Part shown: positions 17,642 through 21,489 of the stretch, piece by piece
Layout of the letters: each line of letters starts with the position of its first letter
Numbering within the stretch: the first letter of the stretch is position 1
Assembly (NCBI RefSeq): GCF_006337065.1
Contig: NZ_CP040872.1
Location: forward strand, 1,922,001 to 1,986,000
Origin: Agromyces laixinhei
GTDB lineage: Bacteria > Actinomycetota > Actinomycetes > Actinomycetales > Microbacteriaceae
Reading direction: 5' to 3'
Length of the DNA: 64,000 bases
Notes under the pieces: generated by a model
What the model saw: only the letters and a program-made list of their open reading frames with translations
Told to the model about the DNA's origin: nothing
The model's database searches: none
Translations under genes and position numbers: made by a program

Positions 17642-18493
17642 TCAGCGCACCTGACGCACGTCGAACTGCATGCGCGGATCGGCGTACGTCTCCTGCGCCT
17701 CCACCAGTTGCAGCTCGCGTTCGCCTGATTCCTGCGTGAGCGACAGCAGGTCGAAGACGCTCGAGGTCGTGCGCGCGAGGGCATCGGCGGCAGAGCCCGT
17801 GCGACGGTAGTGCGCGGTGAACAGCGCCGCCGTGACGTCCCCGGAACCGTTGGCCTTCAGCGGCAGCTTCGGGGTCGCCACGATCCACGCCCCCGAATCG
17901 TCGACGGCGAGCATCTCGATCGTGCCGTCATCGCGGTCGGGCCGCTCGACGCTCGTGACGAGCACGGTGCGCGGCCCGGTGGCGCGCACGAGCTCGACCG
18001 ACGCCAGGGTCGACTCGAGCGTGTCGGGTTCGGTCTCCGTGAGAAATCCCAGCTCGAACTGATTGGGCGTGATGATGTCGGCCGCGGGAACCACACGGTC
18101 GCGCAGCAGGACCGGGATGGCGGGGGCCACGAAGCATCCGGATTTCGCATTGCCCATGACCGGGTCGCAGGCGTAGACCGCTTCGGGGTTCGCGGACTTG
18201 ACCCGCGCGACGGCGTCGAGAATCACGTCGGCGATGCCCTCGCCGCCCTGGTACCCCGAGAGCACGACGTCGATCTGCGGGAAGACGCCCCGTTCCTCGA
18301 TGCCGGTGATGACCTCGCTCACCTCGTCGGGGCTGATCATCGGACCGCGCCAGGCGCCGTAGCCGGTGTGATTCGAGAAGTTGACGGTGTAGACCGGCAA
18401 CACCTCGACGCCGATGCGCTGCAGGGGGAAGACGGCGGCGGAGTTGCCGACGTGACCGTAGGCGACCGCGGACTGGATCGAGAGAATCTTCAC
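17642..18493 (-). CDS. pdxY: Pyridoxal kinase
   Basis: Phosphorylates pyridoxal in vitamin B6 salvage. 283 residues of the PfkB/ribokinase-like fold: MKILSIQSAVAYGHVGNSAAVFPLQ at the start is the PdxK/PdxY signature, with DVVLSGYQGGEG, VYACDPVMG, ITPNQFELGFLTE and the anion-hole GSGDVTAALF near the C-terminus, where the Asp is the catalytic base. The start is GTG 18493; the ribosome binding site is weak. It follows pdxR by 48 bp on the same strand and both face away from pdxS-pdxT, so salvage, regulation and de novo synthesis of PLP sit in one locus. Convergent with the HIT gene. Confidence 0.93.
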   Translation of the reverse strand: MKILSIQSAVAYGHVGNSAAVFPLQRIGVEVLPVYTVNFSNHTGYGAWRGPMISPDEVSEVITGIEERGVFPQIDVVLSGYQGGEGIADVILDAVARVKSANPEAVYACDPVMGNAKSGCFVAPAIPVLLRDRVVPAADIITPNQFELGFLTETEPDTLESTLASVELVRATGPRTVLVTSVERPDRDDGTIEMLAVDDSGAWIVATPKLPLKANGSGDVTAALFTAHYRRTGSAADALARTTSSVFDLLSLTQESGERELQLVEAQETYADPRMQFDVRQVR

Positions 18494-18541: not shown

Positions 18542-19852
18542 TCACGGGCGGACGGCGCGCACGGAAGCGCCGACGTCGCCGGCCAGCTTCCGCAGGTCGT
18601 CGTCGTCGAGGTCGTGCACCGTCAGGCGCAGGTGGTCGGATGCCTCGCCGCCGAGCGCGAATTCGTCGCCGGGCCTGGCGAGCCAACCGCGGCGCATGAG
18701 CTGCTCCGAGACGGCGCGTGCGGGGGCGCCGAGGGGAACCCAGACGTTCAGGCCGTCGCCGGGCCGCGTCGGAACGCCCTCGGCGGTGAGCAGTTCGGCG
18801 AAGGCTGCGTTGCGAGCGGCGTAGTGTTCGCCGGCCGCACTGATGGCGGCTGCGACCTCGGGGTCGGTCGCGAGCGTGCGCACGAGTCGCTGCAGCAGGT
18901 GGCTCACCCACGTGGTGCCCGGCGTCAGTCGCGTCGCGAGCCGGTCGGCGGTCTCGGGGTCGGAGGCCGTGACGGCAAGGCACATGTCTGGGCCGAGGAA
19001 CTTGGAGACCGAGCGCACGAGCGCCCAGCGTCGATGCCCGGCGCCGATGAGCGAGTGGTGCGGCAGTTGCGAGAGCAGCGAGTAGTGGTCGTCTTCGATG
19101 ACGAGCACGTAGGGGTGTTCGCCGAGCACCGCGCGAAGCTCGGCGGCACGCCGCTCGGAGAGGCTCGCGCCGGTGGGATTCTGTGCGCGCGGGGTGCAGA
19201 TGACGGCCCGAACACCCTGTTCGAGTGCGGCCCGCAGGCCCTCGACGGTCATGCCCTCGTCATCGATCGGCACCGGCACCGGGCGGTAGCCGCCGACCTG
19301 CACCGTGTGGATGCTCGTGAGGAAGCACGGGTCTTCGAGCGCGACCGCGTCGTCGCGCGTGAGCGCTTGGGCCAGCAGCCGTTCGACGGCGTCGGCCGCG
19401 CCACTCGTGACGGTGATCCGCATCGGAATCTCGGCGGGGAGGTCGGTGCCCATCCAGGTGCGGGCCCACTCTCCCAAGACGGGATCGATGACGGGTTCGC
19501 CGTACAGCACGGGGCGTCGGGCGATGCTCGCCAATGCTGTCGACGGGTCGGGGATGCGTGCCGGATCGGGATTGCCGGTGCCGATGTCGCGGAGGGCCGT
19601 GTCGGCGAACCCCTCCTGGGCGACGGCCGAGCCGCCCGCGACGCGTGTGCCGCCGCGACCCAGGGTGATGACGACGCCGGCGTTCGTCAGCTGCCGGTAG
19701 GCGGAGACGGCGGTGTTGCGGTTGACGCCGAGATGCTCCGCGAGCGCACGCACCGGCGGGAGCGCATCGCCCGGCCGGAGCGCGCCGCGCTCGATGAGCG
19801 TGCGCAGGCTGTCGGCGATCTCGGCCGCGGAGCGACCCTCGATGTCGTTGAT
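18542..19852 (-). CDS. pdxR: MocR-family (GntR-aminotransferase) regulator, PdxR-like; start codon uncertain
   Basis: A PLP-binding activator of the MocR/PdxR group. The GntR winged helix is encoded from about 19850 (INDIEGRSAAEIADSLRTL, then PPVRALAEHLGVNRNTAVSAYRQL), followed by an aminotransferase class I-like domain (AVICTPRAQNPTGASLS, and VSKFLGPDMCLAV with the expected PLP lysine). No ATG, GTG or TTG occurs in this frame between the stop at 19886-19888 and GTG 19753, which lies inside the winged helix. A strong GAGGAAGGA (19870-19862) sits 9 nt before ATC 19852 and 6 nt before GTC 19855, so I place the start at ATC 19852 provisionally. A shorter product from 19753 would lose half of the DNA-binding domain. 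Divergent from pdxST, which it probably activates. Confidence 0.75.
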   Translation of the reverse strand: MNDIEGRSAAEIADSLRTLIERGALRPGDALPPVRALAEHLGVNRNTAVSAYRQLTNAGVVITLGRGGTRVAGGSAVAQEGFADTALRDIGTGNPDPARIPDPSTALASIARRPVLYGEPVIDPVLGEWARTWMGTDLPAEIPMRITVTSGAADAVERLLAQALTRDDAVALEDPCFLTSIHTVQVGGYRPVPVPIDDEGMTVEGLRAALEQGVRAVICTPRAQNPTGASLSERRAAELRAVLGEHPYVLVIEDDHYSLLSQLPHHSLIGAGHRRWALVRSVSKFLGPDMCLAVTASDPETADRLATRLTPGTTWVSHLLQRLVRTLATDPEVAAAISAAGEHYAARNAAFAELLTAEGVPTRPGDGLNVWVPLGAPARAVSEQLMRRGWLARPGDEFALGGEASDHLRLTVHDLDDDDLRKLAGDVGASVRAVRP

Positions 19853-19888
19853 GACGAACCGTCCTTCCTCGTGTCTGCGACCATGCTA

Positions 19889-19921
19889 TCTTTTGGCCTA
19901 GGACAATAGTTCTGTTGGTCT
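19889..19921. promoter_or_regulatory. Direct repeats in the pdxR-pdxS intergenic region (probable PdxR sites)
   Basis: TCTTTTGGCCT (19889-19899) and TCTGTTGGTCT (19911-19921) agree at 9 of 11 positions and are spaced 22 bp start to start, two helical turns. MocR regulators such as PdxR and GabR bind direct repeats in divergent promoters, so these are good candidate sites. Repeats are seen; the binding is inference. Confidence 0.6.
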
Positions 19922-19966
19922 GTACTGATGCGCGACGATGTGCGCGCTCGTCCGGAAGGATTCCCT

Positions 19967-20857
19967 GTGACCGTCTCCGAAACGGGTTCGAACCGCGTGA
20001 AGCGCGGCCTCGCCGAGATGCTGAAGGGCGGCGTCATCATGGACGTCGTCACGCCCGAGCAGGCGCGTATCGCCGAAGATGCCGGCGCCGTCGCCGTCAT
20101 GGCGCTCGAGCGAGTGCCCGCCGACATCCGTTCGCAGGGCGGCGTCGCCCGCATGAGCGACCCCGACCTCATCGACGCGATCATCGCCGAGGTGTCGATC
20201 CCCGTCATGGCGAAGGCTCGCATCGGCCACTTCGTCGAGGCGCAGGTGCTGCAAGCGCTCGACGTCGACTACATCGACGAGTCGGAAGTGCTCTCGCCCG
20301 CTGACTACGTGAACCACATCGACAAGTGGTCGTTCAACACCCCGTTCGTCTGCGGCGCCACGAACCTCGGTGAGGCGCTTCGCCGCATCAACGAGGGCGC
20401 CGCGATGATCCGATCGAAGGGCGAGGCCGGCACGGGCGACGTCTCGGAGGCGACCAAGCACATCCGCAAGATCTCCTCCGAGATCAACCAGCTGAAGTCG
20501 ATGACGCGCGACGAGCTGTACGTGGCCGCCAAGGAGCTGCAGGCGCCGTACGAGCTCGTGCTCGAGGTCGCCGAGACCGGCAAGCTCCCCGTCGTGCTCT
20601 TCGTCGCCGGCGGCGTGGCCACTCCGGCGGATGCCGCGATGATGATGCAGCTCGGCGCCGACGGCGTGTTCGTGGGCTCGGGCATCTTCAAGTCGGGCAA
20701 CCCCGAGGCTCGTGCCGCTGCGGTCGTGAAGGCGACCACGTTCTACGACGACCCGTCGGTCGTCGCACAGGTCTCCCGCGGCCTCGGCGAGGCCATGGTC
20801 GGTATCAATGTCGCCGACCTCGCGGCTCCGCATCGTCTCGCCGAGCGCGGCTGGTGA
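19967..20857 (+). CDS. pdxS: Pyridoxal 5'-phosphate synthase, PdxS (synthase) subunit
   Basis: With the glutaminase PdxT it makes PLP from ribose 5-phosphate, glyceraldehyde 3-phosphate and ammonia. 296 residues: [28 protein letters not shown] at the start, [13 protein letters not shown] (catalytic lysine), [30 protein letters not shown] and [21 protein letters not shown] choose GTG 19967 since GGAAGGA ends 6 nt before it; ATG 19928 would add 13 unconserved residues. The 4-bp GTGA overlap couples it to pdxT. Located directly downstream of the direct repeats that probably bind PdxR. Confidence 0.96.
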
Positions 20858-21489
20858 CGACGAGTCTCAGAAGCGGATCCATCCGCGCGGCGCCGGCCTC
20901 GGCCGGCCCCCGCGTCGGGGTGCTCGCGCTCCAGGGCGACTTCCGTGAGCACGCGCACGTGCTCGCGTCGCTCGGTGCCGAGGTGTCGCTCGTCCGTCGC
21001 CCCGAAGACCTCGACGGGGTCGACGGTCTCGTGATCCCCGGGGGCGAGTCGACCGTCATGGACAAGCTGACGCGCATCTTCGGGCTGCAGGCACCGCTGC
21101 GCGCCGCGATCGCCGCGGGGCTGCCCGTCTACGGCACCTGCGCCGGGCTGATCCTGCTCGCCGACGCAGTGCTCGACGCGATCGACGGCCAGGAGTCGCT
21201 CGGAGGCCTCGACGTCGTCGTGCGCCGCAACGCCTTCGGCTCGCAGAACCAGTCCTTCGAGACCGACCTCGACGTTCCGGCGCTCGGCGACGCTCCTGTG
21301 CACGCGGTCTTCATCCGCGGACCGGTCGTCGAATCGGTCGGCGATTCCGCGACGCCGCTCGCGTCGCTCGCCGACGGGCGTGTGGTGGCCGTCGAGCAGG
21401 GGAACCTCCTCGGCACGAGCTTCCACCCCGAGATCACGGGGGAGTACCGCTTCCACGAGTACTTCCTCGCCAAGGTTCGCGCGGCCTGA
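20854..21489 (+). CDS. pdxT: Pyridoxal 5'-phosphate synthase, PdxT (glutaminase) subunit
   Basis: Class I-type glutamine amidotransferase that passes ammonia to PdxS. 211 residues: [14 protein letters not shown] near residue 20, [11 protein letters not shown], the nucleophilic cysteine in [11 protein letters not shown], and the His-Glu pair in [18 protein letters not shown]. The first 18 residues are a non-conserved extension; GTG 20854 overlaps the pdxS stop, so coupled translation supports the long form. pdxT usually leads directly to yebC-ruvCAB; here two extra genes intervene. Confidence 0.96.

Follow-up and report, generated by a model that had tools for sequence, protein, structure and literature searches.

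A gene for a MocR-type regulator of the vitamin B6 type in the soil bacterium Agromyces laixinhei seems to have lost its ancestral GTG or ATG start codon while otherwise remaining intact, and its translation most likely begins at an AUC codon (position 19852), as it would in two sister species. The ancestral GTG (or ATG) would have been lost, and initiation would have passed to the codon that follows it, AUC 19852, to which the ribosome-binding site at 19870–19862 would direct the ribosome on a short leader that would start after a TAGCAT element belonging to a putative promoter. The gene lies in a stretch of 64,000 nucleotides (contig NZ_CP040872.1, positions 1,922,001 to 1,986,000 of the forward strand), referred to as the window; all coordinates are those of the window. 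Features are collected in Table 1.

Table 1. Features of the regulator locus and its surroundings in the window
Feature	Position	Strand	Basis or remark
Pyridoxal kinase pdxY	17642..18493	-	NF004398, 387.5 bits (cut-off 292)
MocR-type regulator of vitamin B6 genes (pdxR/ptsJ-like)	18542..19852	-	436 aa if read from ATC 19852; PF00392 and PF00155 over cut-off
GTG, first usual in-frame start codon, inside the DNA-binding domain	19751..19753	-	reading frames, PF00392 match
ATC, most likely start codon	19850..19852	-	6 nt from the paired ribosome-binding site
GTC, where the ancestor had its GTG/ATG start; rival candidate	19853..19855	-	clade alignment
Ribosome-binding site GAGGAAGGA	19862..19870	-	duplex with CCUCCUUU, -8.0 kcal/mol (computed)
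TAGCAT, putative -10 element	19883..19888	-	TAG is the in-frame stop, AT begins ATG 19884
TTGTCCTAGGCCAA, imperfect palindrome, probable regulator operator (putative)	19893..19906	-	similar in most loci, by eye
pdxS, divergent from the regulator	19928..20857	+	NF003215, 521.2 bits (cut-off 395); match from residue 17
pdxT	20854..21489	+	TIGR03800, 235.4 bits (cut-off 105.55)

The regulator and its neighborhood

The regulator has the domain architecture of MocR proteins, in which a GntR winged helix at the N terminus precedes a class I aminotransferase-like domain. In a profile search with the frame read from GTC 19855, PF00392 (GntR) was mapped to residues 11–72 with 61.7 bits, and the aminotransferase-like domain PF00155 scored 72 bits. 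The neighborhood is that of a vitamin B6 regulator: pdxS and pdxT are encoded divergently on the plus strand and pdxY lies downstream. An intergenic region shared by pdxST and pdxR is described in PMC5320631. The name pdxR, under which the gene had been introduced, is thus backed by its position divergent from pdxST. Nevertheless, despite the adjoining pdxST, the protein is by NCBIfam score far nearer PtsJ than PdxR and falls below both cut-offs. PtsJ (NF012025), the best among the families listed, gave 503 bits against a cut-off of 573, and PdxR (NF052282) gave 156.9 bits against 320. Compared with known PdxR and PtsJ regulators, the window protein shares the GntR and aminotransferase-like domains and the divergent arrangement with pdxST, and differs in these scores and in the lack of a usual start codon. 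Including the regulator itself, nine matches were found in the window genome (L001–L008), the others being distant MocR- or GntR-like proteins (25–43% identity). As a separate observation, the true start of pdxS may be GTG 19967, which follows GGAAGGA, instead of ATG 19928.

Absence of a usual start codon and probable translation of the complete domain

Between the stop codon TAG 19888–19886 and GTG 19753, the minus-strand frame contains no ATG, GTG or TTG, so that a conserved domain is encoded without any of these codons able to start it. The reading frames confirmed what the earlier note had claimed about this interval, and the stop codon, the GAGGAAGGA site at 19870–19862, GTC 19855–19853, ATC 19852–19850 and GTG 19753–19751 are all where it had placed them. 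The ATG that it had seen in the neighboring frame is also present and out of frame, but lies at 19884–19882, one base off the 19885 given there. The locus is a true case of a missing usual start.

One way to account for it is that translation starts at GTG 19753 and that the window species no longer has the DNA-binding part of the protein. This GTG is the first usual in-frame start, and database proteins of some relatives do begin inside or after the GntR domain and lack PF00392 (P0017 and P0022, 395 aa; P0031, 382 aa). Read from GTG 19753, however, PF00392 retains only profile positions 28–64 and scores 25.9 bits, below the cut-off of 27. Moreover, the codons ahead of this GTG have changed as coding sequence does. 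In codons 3–34, the window differs from A. cerinus (L009) and from G034 (L011) by nine silent changes and one amino-acid change in each case. Whole-gene dN/dS, which was used in place of counts for codons 35–100 since an amino-acid insertion is unaligned there, is 0.089–0.135 against six relatives. Protein-level selection acts strongly on the codons ahead of GTG 19753, which are therefore translated. We rejected GTG 19753 as the sole start on this codon pattern and consider the loss of the DNA-binding half highly improbable; most likely, judging by the same pattern, the GntR domain is made in full. The shortened database proteins suggest that some gene-prediction programs remove the DNA-binding domain.

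Start codons of the regulator in related bacteria

Sixty Agromyces genomes were searched, of which 49 were used, providing 50 loci including the window (two are from G029). Left out were G021, whose copy is cut by a contig end, and ten genomes without a close copy (best E-value 1e-49 or weaker). A second copy in G032 (52% identity) was also left out; L057 of G002 (51% identity) was retained among the 50 loci. A set of 80 named loci overlaps the same genomes (L058 is L009) and is not independent of the 50. The window clade comprises 21 loci (L001, the window, and L009–L028), and the nearest named relative is A. cerinus (93% identity).

No usual in-frame start at all is present in three of the 50 genus loci, namely the window, A. 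cerinus and G034 (L011), and none is present downstream of the TAGCAT element in six. Among the named loci, A. cerinus (L058) is without any usual start, and Agromyces sp. Root81 (L060), A. italicus (L067) and A. terreus (L069) have none after the element. The codon equivalent to GTC 19855, which the earlier note had proposed to compare in close relatives, is GTG or ATG in 12 of the 21 clade loci. In the other nine it is GTC (L001, L012 and L013), GCC (L009), GAC (L011 and L019), CAC (L010) or GAG (L018 and L023). Several of these nine have a substitute nearby: in L010 and L018 a GTG lies in frame 3 or 6 nt ahead of this place, and L013 carries an ATG at −18. In L012, L019 and L023 no usual start follows TANCAT, and there is only an ATG at −30 overlapping the element. 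For 28 loci outside the clade (L029–L056, 73–78% identity), codon 2 is ACC, ACG or GCC, and all ten of those with a non-canonical codon at the start place carry ATG or GTG 12 nt upstream.

GTC is one base from GTG, and a sequencing or assembly error might therefore be thought to hide the start in the window. Such an error is extremely unlikely, as A. cerinus and G034 are also without a usual start and have other codons at this place. The earlier suggestion of a single-base change or an error thus holds for the change, as history (GTG to GTC, by parsimony), and is refuted for the error by the relatives.

To follow the history of the codon, a nucleotide tree was built from codon 6 onward for the 21 clade loci and four outgroup loci. 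On it the nine loci with another codon form three separate sets: a six-species group (support 0.994), the pair L018 and L023 (1.000), and L019 by itself. Each of these has a GTG or ATG neighbor (node support 0.949, 0.932 and 0.966); some other nodes have support of 0.08–0.19. By parsimony, the shortest account is that the ancestral GTG (or ATG) was lost in three lineages, the alternative being fewer losses and a regain. For the six-species group, the shortest account would be one GTG to GTC change in the ancestor followed by further changes. Sister species that apparently lost the usual codon in three lineages offer a natural experiment on start-codon replacement.

Choice between ATC and GTC

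The three options raised for the window were a rare non-AUG start, a hidden start, and an upstream ATG with a slip. The first is the best supported, and within it ATC 19852 stands ahead of GTC 19855. The 16S tail GGATCACCTCCTTTCT is present twice in the window genome. Computed pairing favors ATC: where no start follows TAGCAT (six loci), it lies 6–7 nt from the paired ribosome-binding site (6 nt in the window), within the range of 4–8 nt found for the 12 usual starts of the clade.

The main rival, which we hold to be unlikely, is translation from GUC 19855, where the ancestral GTG stood. Streptomyces sigR provides a precedent: its GTC start, preceded by a long ribosome-binding site, was probed by codon substitution and is conserved in 32 of 34 species (PMC5472188). 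GTC also occurs at the start place in the window, L012 and L013, probably from one GTG to GTC change. However, GCC and GAC occupy this place in L009 and L011, whose leaders are almost identical to that of the window and likewise lack a usual start. The former start codon is now GTC, GCC, GAC, GAG or CAC, and so has not been kept as one start codon. In addition, GUC 19855 is only 3 nt from the paired site, closer than any of the 12 usual starts. Counting by eye from the end of AAGGA gives a distance of 6 for GTC and 9 for ATC, which favors neither.

At codon 2, ATC is present in all nine clade loci that lost the usual start. It is also present in nine of the 12 loci with a usual start, so ancestry explains its presence in the former. 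Its conservation there is not significant (P of no change about 0.21 at the rate of the others) and therefore does not prove use. Position 3 of the PtsJ profile aligns to residue 5, which puts the profile's own start near codon 3 of this gene.

Database proteins agree in part with AUC 19852 as the start. Both P0001 (window genome) and P0002 (A. cerinus, NCBI) have their initial Met at the ATC 19852 codon; their starts are computed, and the A. cerinus DNA (L058) reads ATC at the start of P0002. A gene-calling program thus made the same choice. Four more, P0004–P0007, compared as proteins, share this first residue. P0003 is longer by two residues (MQIIDIEG), and P0008 and P0016 (A. terreus) begin at the upstream ATG. 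Such differences among proteins of close relatives indicate that the start of the regulator is labile across the genus.

Counting against the AUC start, hairpins are predicted around the start of all three leaders without a usual start, with energies of −16.1, −16.2 and −14.4 kcal/mol (63 nt, without a shuffled control). In one predicted 4-bp hairpin (19865–19853), which may be due to chance, GTC (codon 1) is paired to the end of the ribosome-binding site; its stem is also present in L009 with a changed pair and is absent in L011.

Comparison with known rare starts

Only a small number of bacterial genes are known to depend on a non-canonical start (PMC5472188). One of the closest known systems is infC, the gene of initiation factor 3 (IF3), with an AUC or AUU start. 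Its own product controls infC, the Streptomyces copy begins with ATC, and Streptomyces sigR is repressed by IF3 (PMC5472188). The window genome has its own example. Its infC (L138) reads TAG AGG AGA ACA CGC ATC, the next usual codon being a GTG that lies 51 nt inside and within the domain, and ATC is the sole start candidate between the in-frame stop and this internal GTG. The regulator resembles infC in that ATC, with a ribosome-binding site, is the only candidate before the domain in the same genome. It differs in being a DNA-binding regulator, not a self-controlled initiation factor, and in that its usual start is missing in only part of one genus. With sigR it shares a rare start after a ribosome-binding site in an actinobacterial regulator; in contrast to the tested and conserved GTC of sigR, the codon at that place in the regulator varies and is known here from DNA sequence. 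Searches of a library of open-access papers turned up no report of a rare start in a MocR gene or in Agromyces pdxR.

If translation does begin at AUC 19852, the regulator would add another example to a recognized but very rare mode of starting a protein. The ancestral GTG-ATC pair may have made the loss of GTG bearable because the second codon, ATC, could already be used weakly. A low output, and hence scarcity, of the regulator is plausible, as is, by analogy with infC, its control by IF3. A broader and doubtful proposition is that the Agromyces B6 regulator moved to AUC up to three times from GTG-ATC, which would place it under IF3 in the manner of infC, likewise an AUC gene, and make B6 synthesis answer to the state of initiation.

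The upstream ATG and the promoter region

The remaining way of starting the regulator is from ATG 19884, which is in frame at −30 in relatives and would need a −1 slip in the window group. In the window this ATG is 29 nt from GTC, hence out of frame. The in-frame ATG at −30 occurs in 13 of the 21 clade loci, several database proteins begin there (for example, P0016 of A. terreus), and L012, L019 and L023, which keep it, could use it. However, the ATG is the tail of TANCAT, an element found in 49 of the 50 genus loci at varying distance from the gene and in all three phases to it. Furthermore, the stretch after the ATG shows no coding pattern. In the 13 loci, the 27 nt following ATG −30 differ most at codon position 2 (0.25/0.51/0.33 for the three positions), unlike codons 2–11 of the gene (0.06/0.08/0.38). 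The five of the 13 that lost GTG behave in the same way (0.09/0.48/0.27 after the ATG versus 0.00/0.04/0.30 in the gene). No slippery heptamer for a −1 slip was seen by eye. We therefore rejected ATG 19884 as very unlikely to be the start codon, whether a slip is assumed or not, and with it this part of the earlier note. The ATG is best read as part of a putative promoter element and not as a start codon.

A TANNNT box within 26 nt after a TANCAY element was detected in 32 of 57 loci of a wider set (67 loci, ten of which have no match to TANCAY), in 8 of 49 genus loci and in none of the 21 clade loci. The promoter of the wider relatives may sit at this box. Since TANNNT is found downstream in many of them, the −10 role of the clade TAGCAT is treated here as putative. 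TATTGT 19908–19903 was considered as an upstream promoter and dismissed, as by eye it is not common to all relatives.

Among the Microbacterium loci, five (L110, L121, L126, L128 and L137) have, by eye, an ATG 6–7 nt past a TAGACT box. This spacing suggests a leaderless transcript in these five relatives.
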